Source: Bryobacterales bacterium (lineage in GTDB: Bacteria; Acidobacteriota; Terriglobia; Bryobacterales; UBA6623). From it: 64,000 bases of DNA. This document shows, one piece after another, positions 7,864 through 16,208 of this stretch. Numbering within the stretch: the stretch's first letter is position 1; each line of letters opens with the position of its first letter. The position numbers and the translations under genes are program-made. The DNA lies in NCBI GenBank assembly GCA_028819575.1, contig JAPPLB010000156.1, positions 1 to 64,000 on the forward strand, in the 5' to 3' direction. The notes beneath the pieces were generated by a model. It did no database searches, was not told the DNA's origin, and was given only the letters and a program-made list of their open reading frames with translations.

Positions 7864-9432
7864 CTACGGTTCCATCTCCCGCTCGCGGCCGAACCCTCCA
7901 CCGCCGGGGGTTTTTATGGTCAGACGGTCTCCTGTACCGGCGCTGAAGTGGCCCTTGGCGGGCAGGGGGTTTCCGTTAAGTAGGTTCTGGCCGGGTTGGC
8001 CTGGTTGACCTCGTTGGGAGCCGTAGGGACGAGTTTGACGGCGGTCGGAGAGGAGTGCGAAGTCGGTCTCGGTGAGGAACTCGAACTCGCGGATGACTCC
8101 GTCACCGCCTCGATATTTGCCCTCGCCTCCTGAGCCGCGGCGGACGGCATAGCGCCTCATGAGTAGGGGGTAGAGATGCTCCAAGGCCTCGACCGGAGTG
8201 TTGAGGCTGTTGGTCATGTGGTTCTGTACCGCATCCATGCCGTCGGCTGTCGGGCGTGCGCCCATTCCTCCGGCGATGGTTTCGTAGTAAGCGAAGGGAA
8301 GTCCGGTCAAGGGGTCGATGCCGCCCAGGGAGAGATTGTTCATCGTCCCGGCGCTGGCGGCGGGAATCTTCTCCGGGAGAGCCTTCTGTAGAGCTCCGAG
8401 CAGGGTGTCGGTGATGCGCTGGGATGTCTCGACATTGCCTGCTGCGACGCTGGCGGGCGGTTGGGCGTCGAGGACGCTGCCGGGTTTGGTGAGCACTTCG
8501 ATGGGACGCAGCAGGCCGGCGTTGAACGGTGCGTCGTCGTCGATGAGGCACCGGAAGCAGTACATCGTGGCGGCGACGGTGATGGAGAGATTGGCGTTGA
8601 CGCCGCCGCGCTGTTGCTGGGCGGAGCCGCTGTAGTCGACGAGCGCCCGGTCGCCGCAGATGGTAAGACGGCAGTGGATACGGACGGGTGGAGATCCGAA
8701 GCCGTCGTCGTCCAGAAAGTCTTCGAAGTCGTATTCGCCGTTAGGAATTCCTTGGAGGCGGACGCGCATCATGCGTTCGGTGTAGTCCTTGAGGGCGTCC
8801 ATCTGTCGGGAGATGCGCCCGTGGCCGTATTTTTCCGTTGCGGCGAGTAGGCGGCGTTCGCCGATGCGGTGAGAGGCGACCTGGGCGGCGAGGTCGCCCC
8901 GGCGTTCCTCCGGCGTGCGGACGTTGGCGAGGATCAGGTCGAGGGTTTCGTTTTGTATCTCGCCATGCCGGAAAAGCTTGACCGGCGGTATCCGAAGGCC
9001 TTCCTGGTAGATCTCGCGGGCAAGGGGCATCGAGCCGGGAGACATGCCGCCGACGTCGGCATGGTGGGCGCGGGTGGCGAGGTAGTAGGCGGGTTCAGGG
9101 TCGTCGGCGGTGAAGACTGCAGATACGGAAGTGATGTCAGGCAGGTGCGTGCCGCCCCGGAAGGGGTCGTTGAGAATGACGATGTCTCCGGGGTCGATCG
9201 TATGGGAACGCAGAGCTTCGGCGACCGAGAAGGGCATGGCGCCGAGATGGACCGGCATGTGATCGCCCATGGCGATGGTTTCGGCGTGCCGGTCGTAGAC
9301 GGCGCAGGAGAAGTCCAGCCGCTCCTTGATGTTGGCCGAAAAGGCGGTGCGCCGAAGGACGATGCCCATTTCGTCGGCGATGGAGAGAAAGATGTTCCGA
9401 AAAACTTCGAGTTCAAGGTTGAGTCCGCTCAT
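7864..9432 (-). CDS. hydantoinase B / oxoprolinase family protein (HyuB)
   Basis: This 522-residue protein has the full length and motifs of the HyuB family, the partner of HyuA in ATP-dependent ring opening of hydantoins, N-methylhydantoins or 5-oxoproline, or in related acetone-carboxylase-like enzymes. Visible signatures are FRNIFLSIADEMGIVLRRTA near the start, DHMPVHLGAMP and NDPFRGGTHLPDIT (about 55-105), then RPYGSQRGQPGQPGQN and TPGGGGFGRE at the end. The gene starts 10 bases after the stop of the HyuA-like gene on the same strand, so the two form an operon. The substrate cannot be told from sequence. Cytoplasmic. Confidence 0.9.
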   Translation of the reverse strand: MSGLNLELEVFRNIFLSIADEMGIVLRRTAFSANIKERLDFSCAVYDRHAETIAMGDHMPVHLGAMPFSVAEALRSHTIDPGDIVILNDPFRGGTHLPDITSVSAVFTADDPEPAYYLATRAHHADVGGMSPGSMPLAREIYQEGLRIPPVKLFRHGEIQNETLDLILANVRTPEERRGDLAAQVASHRIGERRLLAATEKYGHGRISRQMDALKDYTERMMRVRLQGIPNGEYDFEDFLDDDGFGSPPVRIHCRLTICGDRALVDYSGSAQQQRGGVNANLSITVAATMYCFRCLIDDDAPFNAGLLRPIEVLTKPGSVLDAQPPASVAAGNVETSQRITDTLLGALQKALPEKIPAASAGTMNNLSLGGIDPLTGLPFAYYETIAGGMGARPTADGMDAVQNHMTNSLNTPVEALEHLYPLLMRRYAVRRGSGGEGKYRGGDGVIREFEFLTETDFALLSDRRQTRPYGSQRGQPGQPGQNLLNGNPLPAKGHFSAGTGDRLTIKTPGGGGFGREREMEP

Positions 9433-9442
9433 GGGGTGTGGG

Positions 9443-11242
9443 TCACGGTTTGGTCAGGATCAGGTTGCCGACGGCGTCGCCACGAGAGGCCCACCCGGGC
9501 GGGATGTAGACGCTCGAGAAGGTCTCGGCCTGGGTGGGTGCATCCAGATCGATCTTGTCACGCGGAGCGACAGCTCGGATGCGGGCGGTGACGGCTTCGA
9601 CAGCGAGGCCGGAATGATCGTAGCCGTAGCGTTTACGGTGGGCGTCGTGGAAGCGGTCACGATCGGCGGCGGGGACGGTGATTTCGAAGGACTGACCTTC
9701 GTAGCGCAGATCGACCTGGCGTTCGAAGTGCACTTGAGGGTGACCTTCAGCGGCGAACTCGCGGGACGCGCGGGCTTCGAGTTCGGTGAAAACCTCGTTG
9801 ACATTGCGGCCGAGGGTGGACTGAGAGAAGTCGCGCACGCAATCGGCGGAGAGCATGCCCAAGGCGGACAGCACGCCGGCATGCTGAGGCACGATAACTG
9901 TTTTCATCTCGAGGCGGGCGGCAAGCTCGCAAGCATGCTGCGGTCCGGCGCCGCCGAAGCTGAGCAGGGCGAAGTCACGGGGGTCGTAACCGCGCTCGAC
10001 CGAGATGGCGCGGATGGCACGCTCCATGTTGGAGTTGGCGACCTGAATGATGGCCTTTGCGAGTGAGTCAGGAGAAGTGCCGACGGATTCGGCGAAGCTC
10101 GTCATGTGCCTGCGGGTGCGTTCGATGTCCAACGGCATGCGGCCGCCGAGGAACTGTTCCGGGTTGAGACGGCCAAGCATGAGGTTGGCGTCGGTGACAG
10201 TGATTTCATCGCCTTCGCCGTAGCAGACCGGGCCGGGGTGGGCGCCGGCGCTGCGGGGCCCGACGCGAAGGGCGCCGGCGGAATCGAGATAGGTGATCGA
10301 GCCGCCCCCGGCGCCGACGCTGTGGATATCGAGCATCGGCACGCGAATGGGGAAATCTCCAATCTTTGATTCGGTGGTGTAAGTGAAGCCGTTGTCGTAG
10401 AGAGAGACATCGGTAGAAGTGCCTCCCATGTCGAAGCTGATGATCTTTTTGAAACCTGCCGATCGTGCCACGGCGGCAGCCCCGAGCACGCCACCGGCGG
10501 GACCGGAGAGGACGGTGTGGATGGCGCTGTGGCCGGCTGCCCGAGTGGAGATGGAGCCTCCGTTCGATTGAAAGACGCGGAGGCGGCTGGCGGTCAGTTG
10601 CTGATCGAGTCGGCGGAGGTAGCGGTCCATCAGCGGTGAGACGTAGGCATTCACGACGGTGGTGGACGCGCGCTCGTATTCGCGGTATTCCGGAAGGATT
10701 TTGTGCGAGAGGGATACGAACAGGCGCTCCAGCTTTTTACCGAGCAGTCGTTCGTGGGCGGTGTTCACGTACGAGTGCAGCAGGCAGACGGCGACGGACT
10801 CGGCGCCAGCCTCGCGAATCCGGCGGGCAAGGGCCTCGGCGGCTTCGTCTGTCAACTCACGTTCGACGGAGCCGTCATGGAGGATGCGTTCGGGAGCGCC
10901 GAAGGTGAGTTTCCTGGGGATGAGGCTGGGGCGGGCGGCGGCGAAAAAGTTATAGAGTTCTGGGCGGTTCTGGCGTCCGATTTCGAGGATGTCTTCAAAG
11001 CCTTCGGTGGTCACGAAGGCGGTGCGTGCGCCTTTGCGTTCGAGCAGGGCGTTGGTCGCGACGGTCGAGCCGTGGACGATCTCGTCGGCTGTGATGTCGG
11101 CGAGTTCCTTGATGATGGCGCGTGCCGGGTCATCGGGCGTGGATCGGGTTTTGCGTGCGAAGTAGCGTTCCCCGTCCCTGATAAGGAAGTCGGTGAACGT
11201 GCCGCCGGTGTCGACGCCGACCTGGATGTGAGGGGTTGGCAC
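9443..11242 (-). CDS. hydantoinase A / oxoprolinase family protein (HyuA)
   Basis: This 599-residue ATPase-fold protein belongs to the HyuA family. It shows the N-terminal phosphate-binding motif VDTGGTFTDF (about 9-18), then HGSTVATNALLERKGA, GFEDILEIGRQNRPELY, SGPAGGVLGAA and DMGGTSTDVSLYD, with GAGGGSI near 315. It is shorter than the roughly 680-720 residues common in this family and ends soon after the AVAPRDKIDLDAP segment, so the usual C-terminal extension is short or absent. It is the first gene of the pair with the HyuB-like gene downstream. Together they would hydrolyse a cyclic amide with ATP, in the cytoplasm. Confidence 0.9.
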   Translation of the reverse strand: MPTPHIQVGVDTGGTFTDFLIRDGERYFARKTRSTPDDPARAIIKELADITADEIVHGSTVATNALLERKGARTAFVTTEGFEDILEIGRQNRPELYNFFAAARPSLIPRKLTFGAPERILHDGSVERELTDEAAEALARRIREAGAESVAVCLLHSYVNTAHERLLGKKLERLFVSLSHKILPEYREYERASTTVVNAYVSPLMDRYLRRLDQQLTASRLRVFQSNGGSISTRAAGHSAIHTVLSGPAGGVLGAAAVARSAGFKKIISFDMGGTSTDVSLYDNGFTYTTESKIGDFPIRVPMLDIHSVGAGGGSITYLDSAGALRVGPRSAGAHPGPVCYGEGDEITVTDANLMLGRLNPEQFLGGRMPLDIERTRRHMTSFAESVGTSPDSLAKAIIQVANSNMERAIRAISVERGYDPRDFALLSFGGAGPQHACELAARLEMKTVIVPQHAGVLSALGMLSADCVRDFSQSTLGRNVNEVFTELEARASREFAAEGHPQVHFERQVDLRYEGQSFEITVPAADRDRFHDAHRKRYGYDHSGLAVEAVTARIRAVAPRDKIDLDAPTQAETFSSVYIPPGWASRGDAVGNLILTKP

Positions 11243-11392
11243 TCGCTGAATCCTGAATTGTAGGATACGGGCGATTCGAGATTCAGAAGGGGCCGAATCC
11301 GCGCCGGGAGTAATGGGCCGGAACGCGGCGAATCCATCTGTGATCCAAAGCTGATGGGACTGTCGGATCGTTCTCCAAGGCGCTGTCCGGCG

Positions 11393-12370
11393 TTAGCGTC
11401 CCTGTCCCAATGGGACTTGGCGGTCGGGTTTGGGCTTGGCGCGGATCAGGCGCCAGGGCCTCTGCCGCAACTCATCCGTTAGTTCCTCGACATTCCGGGA
11501 TGCGACGCGGAAGTTCTCGATCGATTCATTGACGTTTTCCTCGTTTACTGCGACCAGGGCCTGAATCTGGTCGAGTAGTTCGCGAGCTTCGCGTAGTGTC
11601 AACCCCAACTCTTCGAGGTCGCGCTTGAGCGGCTCACGGGCATCCTGGAGCATTCCGTTGAAGTTGGTGACCGTTGCATCGGTATTCTTGGCCAGCTTGG
11701 TGTATTCGTCGGTCATTCCCTGCGCTTTTTCGAGAGTCTCACTGATGTCGTTGGCAACTTGATCAATCTTGGGGCGGAGTTCTTCGACGAGTAGGTTCGT
11801 GTTTTCGAGCATCTTCTCGATGTTGCGCTGGTTTTTGCTGCCGGTCAGCTCTTGGAGGTTCATCAGGAGCACGTGGGCGTCTTCGGCGACCATACGAAAG
11901 TCGCGCTGAACAACTTTCATCACATCCTCTGCCGTGTCAGTAACGTCAGCGATTTTCTTGGTGAGGTCGTCAAGGGTTACGGTTTCCATCGAATCAATGG
12001 TGCCCCCAGGTTCGATGCGCGGGGCGTTCATTTCCCCCGGCGTCACCTCCAGGTAGTTATTTCCCAAAGCGCTGAGAGAAGCGATCCTGGCGACGGACTT
12101 GGCGTTGACGGGCACATCTCCGCGCATCTCCAACATGACCTCGATGCGTGTCGGATCTTCTGTCCAAGGCCGAATGTCGGTCACGACGCCGGCCTTGAGC
12201 CCGCCGAAACGTACCGTGTGTCCAGACTCCAACCCGCCTGCATAGTCGAAGTAGGTCTTGTAGGGAATCTTCTCCCCCGCTAACTCTATGTTTGCCACGG
12301 AGATGAAGGTCGCCACGAAGATGATCAGGGCTAAGATAACGAAGGCGCCGACTTTGGCTTCATTGCTCAT
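11393..12370 (-). CDS. mlaD: MlaD family (MCE domain) lipid-transport substrate-binding protein
   Basis: This 325-residue protein has one N-terminal membrane helix (about 7-27) followed by an MCE domain (about 38-120; AGGLESGHTVRFGGLKAGVV and LGNNYLEVTPG). A long helical C-terminal region (about 130-300) is rich in Asp/Glu/Lys heptads. Proteins of this type form hexameric rings in the periplasm and move phospholipids between the two membranes. The long helical tail suggests a needle-like extension rather than the short E. coli MlaD. The gene follows the ATPase gene by 8 bases and is the last of the mlaE-mlaF-mlaD order. Confidence 0.85.
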   Translation of the reverse strand: MSNEAKVGAFVILALIIFVATFISVANIELAGEKIPYKTYFDYAGGLESGHTVRFGGLKAGVVTDIRPWTEDPTRIEVMLEMRGDVPVNAKSVARIASLSALGNNYLEVTPGEMNAPRIEPGGTIDSMETVTLDDLTKKIADVTDTAEDVMKVVQRDFRMVAEDAHVLLMNLQELTGSKNQRNIEKMLENTNLLVEELRPKIDQVANDISETLEKAQGMTDEYTKLAKNTDATVTNFNGMLQDAREPLKRDLEELGLTLREARELLDQIQALVAVNEENVNESIENFRVASRNVEELTDELRQRPWRLIRAKPKPDRQVPLGQGR

Positions 12371-12378
12371 GAGGAATC

Positions 12379-13209
12379 CTAGATTTTTGTAAGCGTCTGG
12401 AGATAGTCGTCTTGACCGCCCGCAGCTTGGTCAGGAACGCGATCGAGGAACTGGCGGATGCGAGGGTGAGTGCTTTGGCGAATCTCCTCGGTGGTGCCTA
12501 CGGCAAGAATCTTCCCATGCCGTAGCATGCACATGCGATCGGCAATCAGAAAAGCGCTGGCGAGTTCGTGTGTCACGACGACGATGGTCATCTTGAAAGC
12601 GCTCTTGAGTTGCAGAATGAGGCTGTCGATTTCAGCGGCAATGATGGGGTCCAGGCCGGCTGAGGGCTCATCGAAGAGCAGGATCTCGGGATCCATCGCG
12701 ATGGCGCGGGCAACCGATGCGCGTTTGCGCATTCCGCCCGACAGTTGTGCCGGGTAGAGATTCTCGGCGTCTCCAAGACCGACCTGGGAGAGTTTCATCC
12801 GGGTCATGAGCCGAATGGTCGACTCGGCCAGATTGGTGTGCTCGCGCAGCGGTAACGCTACGTTGTCGGCCAATGTCATCGAGTTGAACAGTGCCGCGCT
12901 TTGGAACGAAATACCCATGATGCGGCGGATGTCATTGACTTCTTCCTCGGTAGCACAGCTGATATCAACGTTCTTGATAAAAACATGACCGGAGGTGGGC
13001 CTGTCGATCCCCATGATCCGGCGGAGCAGAGTGCTCTTGCCAGACCCGGAACCGCCCATGATTACCATCGTTTCGCCGGTGAAGATGTCAAGGTTGATGC
13101 CGTCGAGAACCGTCTTGTCGCCATAGCGGACCACCAAATCGCGCACCGAGATGATCGGTGCATCGGAGGCCCAATGCGCGCGGCTGCTAGGAAGTTTCGG
13201 TTCACTCAT
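12379..13209 (-). CDS. mlaF: ABC transporter ATPase MlaF
   Basis: This ABC ATPase has about 276 residues. It carries Walker A (MGGSGSGKSTLLRR, about 55), signature LSGGMRKRASVARA, Walker B ILLFDEPSAGLDPI and the switch His in VVVTHELASA. It powers phospholipid transport with MlaE and MlaD. The frame is open further upstream to 13344, but that part is antisense-like and lies inside mlaE; the ATG at 13207-13209 overlaps the mlaE stop as ATGA and starts MSEPKLPSSRAH, so I place the start there. The coupled stop-start implies translational coupling in a single operon. Confidence 0.9.
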   Translation of the reverse strand: MSEPKLPSSRAHWASDAPIISVRDLVVRYGDKTVLDGINLDIFTGETMVIMGGSGSGKSTLLRRIMGIDRPTSGHVFIKNVDISCATEEEVNDIRRIMGISFQSAALFNSMTLADNVALPLREHTNLAESTIRLMTRMKLSQVGLGDAENLYPAQLSGGMRKRASVARAIAMDPEILLFDEPSAGLDPIIAAEIDSLILQLKSAFKMTIVVVTHELASAFLIADRMCMLRHGKILAVGTTEEIRQSTHPRIRQFLDRVPDQAAGGQDDYLQTLTKI

Positions 13210-14003
13210 CGCCAGAAGAAGTAGAAGAACGCCGTAAACAAAAGGTCGGCCAGGATGATCAGAAAGATCGACTTCACAACGGCCGCCGTGGTCGAGCGGC
13301 CGACGCCGACGGGTCCTCCCGTGACGTGAAAGCCTTCGTAACAACCGACATGTACGATGATCGTTCCGAAAGCAATGCTCTTGATGAGTCCGGATACGAT
13401 ATCACGAAGCAACAGCGCTTCTAACATAGCTCGAATGTAAAGGGCAAATCCCATATCGAGCGTGAAATAAATGTAGATTCCCCCGGCGAGGATACCTGCT
13501 GTATTGGCGGCGATGGTCAGGCACGGGAGCATGAGGAGCATCGCGATGTATTTGGGCACCAGCAGGAACTCGATGGGGTCGAGCGCCATCGATCGGAGCG
13601 CGTCGACTTCTTCGGTGACGACCATGGTTCCGATCTCGGCCGAAAAGGCCGACCCGGAGCGTCCCACGACGACAATCGCAGTGATCAGCGGACCGAGTTC
13701 CCGCGTCATGCTTACGGCAACGAGATTGATCACAAGCTGTATGGCCCCGAGCTGCCGCAGTTCGGCTCCGCCCTGAAGGGCCATGATCAATCCTGTACAG
13801 GCAGCAATCAAGCAGACGACGGGAAGAGCATTGACGCCGACGACCGCCATGTGCTGAATCGTGCTGGCCCATCGGAGTCGACTGCCGGTGAGAGGGTTGG
13901 CGCGCCAGGCAGCAGCGGCGCCGCGATAGAACTGAATGGTCAGCCCACCGATATACTCGGCCCGCTGGATAGTGCCTCTGCCGACGGATGCCAAGAGCGA
14001 CAT
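13206..14003 (-). CDS. mlaE: ABC transporter permease MlaE
   Basis: This 265-residue integral membrane protein has about five or six hydrophobic segments and the MlaE motifs LPVVCLIAACTGLIMALQGG, TRELGPLITAIVVVGRSGSA and GTMVVTEEVDALRSMALDP. MlaE dimers form the inner-membrane channel of the phospholipid transporter with MlaF and MlaD, both encoded directly downstream. Its stop overlaps the mlaF start (ATGA). Upstream, after 61 bases, lies a STAS-domain gene. In many bacteria an STAS protein (MlaB) is a subunit of this transporter, so that neighbour may be functionally tied. Confidence 0.9.
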   Translation of the reverse strand: MSLLASVGRGTIQRAEYIGGLTIQFYRGAAAAWRANPLTGSRLRWASTIQHMAVVGVNALPVVCLIAACTGLIMALQGGAELRQLGAIQLVINLVAVSMTRELGPLITAIVVVGRSGSAFSAEIGTMVVTEEVDALRSMALDPIEFLLVPKYIAMLLMLPCLTIAANTAGILAGGIYIYFTLDMGFALYIRAMLEALLLRDIVSGLIKSIAFGTIIVHVGCYEGFHVTGGPVGVGRSTTAAVVKSIFLIILADLLFTAFFYFFWR

Positions 14004-14064
14004 GAATGTGACCGAACTGGTGGGGTGTCCGTTGAGTGGCGGTGACTATACGCCGCAAGGCCGT

Positions 14065-14391
14065 TCAGGTTACGGCTTCCTCCGTTTCGGCGATCTCGAA
14101 GACGTTCAGCAGTCGAGTCAACTCGAGCACGTGACGCGGTCCCTCGCGCAAGCCGACAAGGACGAAACGGCGGTTCTGCTTTCTGGCCTCCTGCAGACCC
14201 TCGACCAGACTGGCGATGCCGGAACTGTCGATATAGGGCACTTCGGCCAGGTTGACGATGATCTGCTCCTGTTGGCGCTTGCGGAAGAGATCCAAAACCG
14301 TCTCGCGCAGCTCAGGAGAAGAGTAGAGGTCGATGTCGCCTTCCACGTACACAACTGACCGTGTTCCGACACGCTTTATGTTCAAGTCCAT
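14065..14391 (-). CDS. STAS-domain anti-sigma factor antagonist (RsbV/SpoIIAA-like)
   Basis: The 108-residue protein is a single STAS domain. The motif IDSSGIASLVEGL places a phosphorylatable Ser at residue 57, equivalent to the regulated Ser of SpoIIAA, in a DSSG context. It starts 9 bases after the stop of a GHKL anti-sigma kinase gene on the same strand, which favours a partner-switching role: the kinase phosphorylates this protein and releases or binds a sigma factor. It is also immediately upstream of mlaE, where the MlaB STAS subunit is often encoded, so it could serve either or both. No sigma factor gene is adjacent. Confidence 0.8.
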   Translation of the reverse strand: MDLNIKRVGTRSVVYVEGDIDLYSSPELRETVLDLFRKRQQEQIIVNLAEVPYIDSSGIASLVEGLQEARKQNRRFVLVGLREGPRHVLELTRLLNVFEIAETEEAVT

Positions 14392-14400
14392 GGCTCAAGT

Positions 14401-14817
14401 TCACTTGGCATGCGCCTTGATTCGTTTCCTCATACGCATACAGTTCTTGCCGTCCCGGCGTTCATATTCGATTTCGTCCATGACGGTCTGCATCAGAAAC
14501 ATGCCGCGTCCGCCTGCGCGCAACTCGTCGGGGGCGGGGAGCGGCTGGCTCATGGGGTTGAACGGTTCGCCGTTGTCGTGGATTTCCACCTCGATAGCAT
14601 CTTCGCTGTACAGGGCGGAAACGGTGAGGCGTTGCTTGCACTCCCCTTGGTAAGAGTGCTTGATGACGTTGGCGGACGCTTCGTCGACCGCCAAGACTAT
14701 CTCGCGCGCCGATTGTGCATCCAGACCCTTCAGCTCGGCGTATTCCGTAACGATGCGTCGGATCAGGCTAAGCCAGCGCGGATGACTGGCGACTGTGATC
14801 TCGACCTCGGCGGCCAT
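14401..14817 (-). CDS. anti-sigma factor serine kinase (RsbW-like, GHKL ATPase)
   Basis: This 138-residue protein has the small HATPase_c fold of RsbW/SpoIIAB proteins: N-box VDEASANVIKHSY (about 45-57), G1-like DNGEPFNPM and G2 GGRGMFLMQTVMD. Such kinases bind a sigma factor and phosphorylate the STAS antagonist encoded 9 bases downstream. It is the first gene of the minus-strand run that continues into mlaE-mlaF-mlaD. It diverges from rsmB across a 137-base gap (14818-14954), which should hold both promoters. Confidence 0.85.
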   Translation of the reverse strand: MAAEVEITVASHPRWLSLIRRIVTEYAELKGLDAQSAREIVLAVDEASANVIKHSYQGECKQRLTVSALYSEDAIEVEIHDNGEPFNPMSQPLPAPDELRAGGRGMFLMQTVMDEIEYERRDGKNCMRMRKRIKAHAK

Positions 14818-14954
14818 TCATTTCGTCGGGAGCTAGCGGGGACGCCAGGAACGCGCGTATCAGGCGCAATTATAGCATGCGGTTCCTGGATCTCCGGAAC
14901 CGTCGGCGGCCTTGAGTTCATTGGAGAAAGCGGCGGAATTGCTATCGTGAGTCG

Positions 14955-16208
14955 GTGCCGGACCGGGTGTCACCGGCGCGCTGCGGCGCCTTCCAAGCCC
15001 TCCTCCGCGTCGAGGCGGAGGATGCCTTTGCGTCCGATACGATCCACACCGACTCCCTGTTTGCTGCGATGTCGGAGCGCGACCGGGCGCTTGCTCAAGA
15101 GATCACCCTGGGGTGCCTGCGATGGCAGGGAGCAATCGACGCAATGTTGGCGGATGTGGCTCGGAGGCCGGTCGGAGGGCTGGACCGAGAGGTTCGAATC
15201 GCTTTGCGCATGGGTTGCTATCAGATGCGCTATCTGGACCGGATACCGGATCGGGCAGCCGTTTCGGAGAGTGTGGAGCTGGTCAAGACGTCCGGGAAGA
15301 GGTCCGCTGCCGGGTTTGTGAACGCCGTTCTGCGAACCTTGCCTCAGCGCGCTGAGGAAAAGGTCGAGCTGGAACGGGCTCATCCGCAATGGCTCCTGGA
15401 TCGATGGACTGAATGTTTCGATAGAGAGACGGTTGCGGGCATCCTCAGGGCGAACCAGACGCCGCCCCGCACGTATCTTCGGTTGAACACGCAATATCCG
15501 TTGGAGGAGACTCTGGAGCAACTGGGTGAGGAAGGCGTTGAGACGGAAGCGACGGAACTGGCTCACGCGCGCCTGCTCGTAAGAGGCAAACCGATGGTGA
15601 CGTCGTGCTGGCGCGACGGGCGAGTCCGCATCCAGGATCTGAGTTCGCAAATGATCGTTCCCTTGCTCAATCTGTCTCGGGAGCACCGGTTTCTCGACCT
15701 TTGCGCGGCGCCCGGGGGTAAAACCGCGCAAGCGTTGGAGATAATCGGCACGAGTTCGAGAACTGTCGCAGCCGACCGCCACCTTCACCGCCTTCGCGTT
15801 CTCGGTCAACTGGCGGCCACTCCCGTAAAGAAGGTAGCTCTTGATGCCACCGCCCCACTTCCTTTCCGAACGAAGTTTGATCGTATTCTCGTGGATGTGC
15901 CATGTTCCGGCACCGGAACCCTGGCCCGTAACCCTGAAATCAAGTGGCGTTTGATACCGCAAGACCTGAAGGACCTCACGCTGAAGCAGAAGAGCATTCT
16001 GAACGGCGCTCTTGACTCATTGGAATTCTCGGGAGTCTTGGTCTACTCCTCTTGCTCTCTGGAGCCGGAGGAGAATCAGGGAGTTGTCCAAGCGGTGCTT
16101 GATGAGAGAACCGAATTTCGGGTCGATGCGTATCTGGAAAGAGTGCCCGGTCGCGACCCGGGAGACGGATTCTTCGCCTGTCGGTTCGTGCGACGGCGTG
16201 ATTCGTGA
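14955..16208 (+). CDS. rsmB: 16S rRNA (cytosine-967-C5)-methyltransferase RsmB
   Basis: This 417-residue protein has an N-terminal NusB-like RNA-binding domain (about 5-130) and a C-terminal SAM methyltransferase domain. The SAM site LCAAPGGKTAQAL, the catalytic-loop motif DVPCSGTGTLARNPEIKW and the second Cys motif VYSSCSLEPEEN are all present. It would methylate C967 of 16S rRNA. The start is a GTG at 14955 (an alternative in another register at 14947 is out of frame). A dispersed repeat lies 67 bases past the stop, and then rpe follows on the same strand. Confidence 0.9.
   Translation: MPDRVSPARCGAFQALLRVEAEDAFASDTIHTDSLFAAMSERDRALAQEITLGCLRWQGAIDAMLADVARRPVGGLDREVRIALRMGCYQMRYLDRIPDRAAVSESVELVKTSGKRSAAGFVNAVLRTLPQRAEEKVELERAHPQWLLDRWTECFDRETVAGILRANQTPPRTYLRLNTQYPLEETLEQLGEEGVETEATELAHARLLVRGKPMVTSCWRDGRVRIQDLSSQMIVPLLNLSREHRFLDLCAAPGGKTAQALEIIGTSSRTVAADRHLHRLRVLGQLAATPVKKVALDATAPLPFRTKFDRILVDVPCSGTGTLARNPEIKWRLIPQDLKDLTLKQKSILNGALDSLEFSGVLVYSSCSLEPEENQGVVQAVLDERTEFRVDAYLERVPGRDPGDGFFACRFVRRRDS

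Follow-up and report, generated by a model that had tools for sequence, protein, structure and literature searches.

Organisation of the locus

A 64,000-nucleotide stretch of DNA from a Bryobacterales bacterium (GenBank assembly GCA_028819575.1, contig JAPPLB010000156.1, positions 1 to 64,000; hereafter the window) carries a minus-strand run of genes in which an RsbW/SpoIIAB-like serine kinase and a STAS protein precede mlaE, mlaF and an mlaD-like gene (Table 1), suggesting a partner switch that acts on a lipid ATP-binding cassette (ABC) transporter. An RsbW/RsbV-like pair heading such a run had been described in the initial annotation, and the open reading frames (ORFs), strands and Pfam families all agree with that description. 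The kinase and STAS genes lie 9 bases apart and the STAS and MlaE genes 61 bases apart, with a 4-base overlap (ATGA) between mlaE and mlaF. Beyond the kinase the operon is flanked by a plus-strand RsmB-type ribosomal RNA methyltransferase gene, identified in a Pfam scan of the window, and because this opposite-strand gene adjoins on that side, the run begins with the kinase gene. A scan of positions 11200-15100 returned neither a promoter-like site nor a minus-strand terminator, both counts being no higher than in shuffled sequences, and it therefore carries little information on co-transcription.

Table 1. Genes and predicted phosphosite of the mla operon, in window coordinates
Feature	Position	Strand	Description
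RsbW/SpoIIAB-like serine kinase (GHKL)	14401-14817	minus	138 aa; PF13581 HATPase_c_2, E 1.2e-30; leads the run
STAS protein at MlaB position, RsbV-type phosphosite	14065-14391	minus	108 aa; PF01740, E 6.7e-20
Ser56 codon, predicted phospho-acceptor (DSSG)	14224-14226	minus	from alignment with Thr52 of E. coli MlaB and with other STAS proteins
Ser57 codon of STAS	14221-14223	minus	
MlaE permease	13206-14003	minus	PF02405, E 3.5e-72
MlaF ATPase	12379-13209	minus	PF00005, E 9.9e-30; C-terminal extension of 22 residues, ending DDYLQTLTKI
MlaD-like MCE protein	11393-12370	minus	PF02470, E 1.6e-14 at residues 34-112 of 325

Conservation of the kinase–STAS–mla linkage

The kinase is present in 24 distinct mla loci from two phyla, four of them arranged as PP2C–kinase–STAS–mlaE–F–D and one in an independent layout. 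An order sample of 40 regions around MlaE, comprising 11 from the family of the window, one from family f2 and 28 from family f3, contained kinase–STAS–mlaE–mlaF in 9 of the 11 window-family regions and in the single f2 region, with mlaD in all but L052; the other two window-family regions have an MlaE of a second type, without STAS, and their genomes carry the first type as well. Counted by genome, the order is present in all nine window-family genomes fetched, in addition to the window itself. In the f3 regions of this sample the kinase was found in 0/28 and a STAS gene in 1/28; G092, a genome of family f3, also has the kinase linkage (L162). A homologue search yielded 18 loci, in which all 17 from Acidobacteriota share this order of kinase and STAS genes (ten on the same contigs as regions of the order sample, and an eleventh on the G005 contig), and the eighteenth, from a Halodesulfovibrio record (L105), encodes a STAS protein without the kinase. 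The gene-order survey proposed in the initial annotation thus finds kinase–STAS–mlaE–mlaF in 17/17 acidobacterial relatives, which rules out chance adjacency of the kinase and STAS genes to mla genes. The named operon relatives are Acidobacteriota, mostly Bryobacterales metagenome-assembled genomes, and the same order was found in L107, L141, L144, L145 and L162.

Across 297 Acidobacteriota genomes, the kinase and MlaE profiles (the first profiles were trained without L055) meet in at least two, G000 and G211, among the matches listed. Among 297 genomes from the Halodesulfovibrio phylum, part of whose matches were fetched, kinase–STAS–mlaE is present in G464, G502 and G723, with a different layout in G707; with so few cases in 297 genomes, the linkage is rare in that phylum. 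The top match of the kinase profile outside its training rows in that survey is the G707 protein (111 bits), whose gene (L187:3131-3544, minus strand) is divergent from mlaF–mlaE–mlaD–STAS across 331 bases. This locus encodes an MlaD of 146 aa, a STAS protein with a DSSG site, an MlaF with a tail of 25 residues and an MlaE that matches the window type at a lower score (161 bits). Beside the same kinase lies a PAS-type hybrid histidine kinase, recognised by eye (L187:544-3060).

A SpoIIE-type PP2C phosphatase gene, Pfam-confirmed, directly precedes the kinase on the same strand in L107, L144, L145 and L162, which thus hold kinase, STAS and PP2C together; the window operon holds kinase and STAS only. 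GAF domains are found on the PP2C of L107, L144 and L145, that of L107 also featuring an FHA domain. In L105 a GAF-PP2C gene lies directly before STAS–mlaE, where no kinase is encoded, and the genome carries an RsbW-like kinase elsewhere, within a PP2C–kinase–STAS cassette. With these phosphatases, mla operons of two phyla contain the third partner-switch component.

Two sets of candidates for further linkage were rejected. L173 had appeared to be a kinase–STAS cassette near an MlaF-like ATPase; its kinase is the terminal portion of a PP2C sensor protein, and the match of the ATPase to the MlaF profile is weak. This acidobacterial ORF (L173:3-2687, 894 aa) joins a C-terminal PP2C and an RsbW-like kinase in one chain and is followed by a STAS gene. 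The kinases of L188-L194 have no mla genes beside them, those of L191 lying some 7 kb off; L189, L190, L192 and L193 come from short fragments or lie close to the end of a contig.

The STAS protein as a predicted transporter subunit

By family model, the STAS protein resembles anti-sigma factor antagonists, scoring 79.3 bits against TIGR00377 (cut-off 53.45) and 26.2 bits, below the cut-off of 90, against the curated MlaB model NF033618; with this antagonist match and its DSSG site it has the features of RsbV/SpoIIAA antagonists. It also carries two mla-type residues, A60 and E64. Both are present in 35/35 standalone mla-linked STAS proteins, whereas in non-mla STAS proteins A60 is found in 0/32 and E64 in 2/32; E. 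coli MlaB has A60 and lacks E64. In the STAS tree, the mla-linked standalone proteins together with E. coli MlaB are separated from 32 non-mla STAS proteins by a branch with support of 87, from few columns and with a long E. coli branch. The protein is therefore described here as RsbV-like by fold and family model and MlaB-like by context and A60/E64, and it may well be both at once, as a switch requires.

Retention of the STAS gene without the kinase was observed in 17 mla loci, and in six of these, all from the Halodesulfovibrio phylum, STAS is fused to MlaE; such a fusion was noted earlier in the available parts of PMC1810536 and PMC5016091. In the fusions (L146-L150 and L157) the phosphosite varies between Asp, Ala, Thr and Ser, and the MlaF tails are mostly short. 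Two kinase-less loci, of G083 and G115, carry an ECF-type sigma factor gene divergent to the STAS gene (L131:1696-2301, Pfam-confirmed; L159:642-1205, assigned by likeness). An unrooted MlaE + MlaF tree of 50 rows places the STAS-less rows on one side of a single branch (99*) and all STAS-type operons on the other; six near-copies were removed from this tree and from the STAS tree, and the six fused STAS proteins from the latter. Three kinase-less rows, L161, L082 and L159, branch within the kinase-bearing ones, most simply read as loss of the kinase with retention of STAS, although the direction of gain or loss is our reading of an unrooted tree.

The nearest PDB chains of the MlaF ATPase include P. 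aeruginosa and E. coli MlaF, the latter bearing a C-terminal extension of ~25 residues that contacts the neighbouring MlaF–MlaB pair via Tyr261, Leu265 and Leu266, according to the available part of PMC7367683. Measured as the residues after the conserved RQF, the MlaF tail spans 19-26 residues in 23/23 kinase-linked loci, 15-33 residues in 11/11 loci with a standalone STAS and no kinase, and 6-22 residues in the six fused-STAS loci. A tail of at least 15 residues was found in 34/34 loci with standalone STAS versus 4/52 loci without STAS, the latter being part of those fetched and mostly of family f3. In L144, L145 and L187 the tails are spaced as in E. coli, GPxP ... D[YF]..D[IL]L. Taken together, kinase-less retention, fusion to MlaE, the tree and the MlaF extension indicate at the sequence level that the STAS protein is part of the transporter. 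The MlaD-like protein (325 aa) has a long C-terminal tail, helical by eye, after its MCE domain and matches the MCE and MlaD models of NCBIfam below cut-off; a true Mla system has been defined by an MlaD with one MCE domain and without a long C-terminal helical region (PMC7790496), and the system is therefore termed Mla-like, not ‘true Mla’.

The genome to which the window belongs (5.37 Mb, 98.7% complete; window contig C180) has one MlaE, five STAS genes and seven HATPase_c_2 matches; the STAS_2 profile has four matches, all among the same five STAS genes. The initial annotation had placed the STAS protein in the MlaB position, and the genome is in keeping with this: the other four STAS genes are not beside MlaE and their products lack A60, ruling out a second MlaB elsewhere. 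One of the cassettes away from mla in this genome, L126 (G000:C161:32000-40000), has the order PP2C–kinase–STAS, its STAS protein having an SSS site and no A60; a 262-aa ORF (L128:3413-4201, G000:C176) is an RsbW-like kinase fused to STAS with a DSSG site. Hydantoinase/oxoprolinase B and A genes follow the MCE gene on the same strand of the window (7864-11242).

The kinase and the predicted phosphosite

The closest PDB relative of the kinase is RsbW (6m36_A, E 2.1e-21), and its HATPase_c_2 fold has intact N, G1 and G2 boxes matching those of RsbW and SpoIIAB, although it scores below all RsbW/SpoIIAB equivalog cut-offs (67/145, 63.5/155 and 48/135 bits). Columns invariant over nine relatives include E46, N50, H54, D81, G83, G103, R104 and G105, with E46, N50, H54, D81 and the glycine-rich box unvarying across the aligned mla kinases. 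Compared with the nearest relative, the kinase has a ratio of nonsynonymous to synonymous substitution rates (dN/dS) of 0.25, STAS one of 0.15 and MlaE one of 0.07; the kinase value against the next relative is about 0.09, at saturated dS. From these two pairs, the kinase gene is under purifying selection.

The phosphorylatable residue of the STAS protein had been given as Ser57; alignment to E. coli MlaB and other STAS proteins moves it to Ser56, the first Ser of DSSG and the residue homologous to MlaB Thr52. We take Ser56 to be the counterpart of SpoIIAA Ser58. In the AlphaFold model of the protein (mean predicted local distance difference test score, pLDDT, 95.9), helix 2 begins at residue 56. 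At the position of MlaB Thr52, 24/24 kinase-linked STAS proteins have Ser, always as DSS, and 17 kinase-less loci have Thr in nine, Ser in five and Ala or Asp in three; these counts were made after four copies of the window locus (L002, L006, L013 and L014) were dropped, and the kinase-less loci have ~0.24 to 10 kb of upstream sequence, with less than 1 kb in L110, L112, L157 and L161, where a kinase may lie farther off. One of the five kinase-less loci with Ser, L105, has PP2C in its operon. Naive Fisher p values of 7.8e-07 for all loci and 4.9e-05 for standalone STAS proteins are inflated by shared ancestry, and the correlation between Ser and the kinase is, from these alignments, suggestive.

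Proposed mechanism and alternatives

In our interpretation, the operon encodes a lipid ABC transporter of MlaFED(B) type, and a dedicated RsbW-like kinase would phosphorylate its STAS subunit on serine in a reversible manner. STAS without phosphate would hold MlaF by its face around helix 2, in the manner of E. coli MlaB, keeping MlaF assembled and active; the kinase would compete for this face, or phosphorylate it at Ser56, whereupon phospho-STAS would release MlaF and transport would drop. A PP2C, part of the operon in some relatives and encoded outside it in the present genome, would restore STAS, which in such a scheme would be shared partner and effector subunit at once. We assign a probability of roughly two in three to this reading, in which the operon kinase phosphorylates the MlaB-like STAS protein at Ser56, loosens MlaF and turns transport off, with PP2C reversing the effect. 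The partners are supported by sequence, namely by gene order, conservation, the site residue, kinase motifs and the MlaF extension; the phosphorylation, the binding, their direction and the signal are what we infer around them. The wider formulation, a partner switch with the transporter as its output, where kinase and MlaF compete for the helix-2 face and phosphorylation of Ser56, reversed in some lineages by a PP2C with GAF/FHA sensor domains, gates lipid traffic in at least two phyla, is favoured with somewhat more reserve.

The direction of the effect is drawn from E. coli. According to the available parts of PMC7367683 and PMC5016091, Thr52 lies near the centre of the MlaF–MlaB interface, the T52E variant cuts MlaF in a pull-down, and MlaE does not retain MlaF in the absence of MlaB; phosphorylation as an off signal is therefore the likeliest scheme. 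The earlier proposal that STAS phosphorylation might change MlaFE activity, linking lipid transport to a partner switch, survived all the sequence tests that were run, whereas its direction, off, is our inference.

Several observations weigh against this interpretation. In the same E. coli studies, as far as their available parts report, T52A keeps binding and abolishes ATPase activity (PMC7367683, PMC5016091), which does not fit simple phosphoregulation. The top Foldseek matches of the STAS model are TM1442, RsbV and SpoIIAA (template modelling, TM, scores to 0.90), MlaB chains scoring lower at 0.55-0.73, and the model has an extra C-terminal strand of a kind that MlaB reportedly lacks in the available part of PMC7367683. 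Four kinase-less standalone STAS proteins (L105, L110, L142 and L143) keep Ser. When clades are collapsed, Ser is counted in 6/6 kinase-linked versus 4/9 kinase-less clades (p 0.044), and versus 3/5 for standalone STAS (p 0.18), and the tree test has two independent pairs on starred branches, too few for significance. The kinase tree is poorly resolved, with two changes needed, and the mla kinases may have one origin or several; the L144 kinase lacks the glycine (G83) of the DxG box; and the window operon has no phosphatase gene, the five SpoIIE-type PP2C matches of the genome lying on other contigs.

The kinase of a classical partner switch has a second partner, being shared by the STAS protein and a sigma factor. 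The pair could be a standard RsbW/RsbV switch controlling a sigma factor or another regulator, merely upstream of a transporter that works without MlaB, as the RsbV-like fold of the STAS protein, its TIGR00377 score and the other kinase–STAS pairs of the same type in the genome would allow. We consider this unlikely, since kinase-less operons keep STAS beside mlaE, other loci have it fused to MlaE, MlaF of STAS-type operons carries the MlaB-clasping tail, and the mla-linked STAS proteins form a distinct group; it is weakened further in that the genome has no SigB/F/G above the curated cut-off, yet three matches of 115-137 bits fall below it (cut-off 234).

The STAS protein might instead be the MlaB subunit with the kinase acting on it in the other sense, phosphorylation activating the transporter, or the state of the transporter being signalled through STAS to the kinase and a further target. 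The second partner of the classical kinase would suit such signalling, and the loss of ATPase activity without loss of binding in T52A, reported in the available part of PMC5016091, implies that the residue matters for activity too; the weakened MlaF binding of T52E in the pull-down (PMC7367683, available part) favours off, and we regard this alternative as improbable. That the kinase is a scaffold or acts on another STAS protein, leaving the mla STAS a structural MlaB only, is very improbable: the genome does encode four other STAS proteins, but at least two of them have kinases of their own (adjacent in C161, fused in C176), the catalytic boxes of the window kinase are intact, and the kinase adjoins STAS in all kinase-linked operons except L187, where both flank the same mla genes.

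Relation to known systems and implications

Like MlaB of the E. coli and P. aeruginosa MlaFEDB systems, the window STAS protein is a single STAS domain encoded with MlaF-E-D, with a Ser/Thr after a conserved Asp and with A60, and its MlaF has a C-terminal extension. It differs from E. coli MlaB, in which the site is Thr and for which no kinase is encoded in the mla region; further differences from MlaFEDB are the longer STAS protein with its extra strand, another gene order and the lack of MlaC in the operon. With RsbW/RsbV/RsbU and SpoIIAB/SpoIIAA/SpoIIE the system shares a GHKL kinase, a DSSG STAS protein and, in some relatives, a PP2C, and it is unlike them in its co-encoded lipid transporter and in the mla-type residues of STAS. 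HsbA-type switches likewise pair STAS and kinase in the control of something other than a known sigma factor. SypA/SypE of Vibrio fischeri, in the part of the source available, similarly comprise a STAS protein and a kinase controlling something besides a known sigma factor; unlike in both, the STAS protein here is a predicted ABC transporter subunit.

Phosphorylation of E. coli MlaB at Thr52 has been proposed by analogy with SpoIIAA (PMC5016091, PMC7367683, available parts), and the later paper of this pair, in its available part, regards the regulation of MlaB as open, phosphorylation being without experimental evidence; no kinase for MlaB is named in the available parts of either. A review of STAS-only proteins contains no word starting with Mla in its main text (PMC8256260), and a full-text search of open-licence papers returned no recognisable description of a kinase–STAS–mla operon. 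What is new here is the joining of an Mla-like transporter and a partner switch, each known separately. These operons supply a candidate kinase, and sometimes a phosphatase, beside the predicted substrate and target, so that the question of MlaB phosphorylation becomes directly testable with three proteins in vitro. The presence of a kinase, and in some relatives a phosphatase, in the transporter operon suggests an on/off switch for lipid transport, in which, if true, serine phosphorylation would act on an ABC transporter via a detachable STAS subunit.

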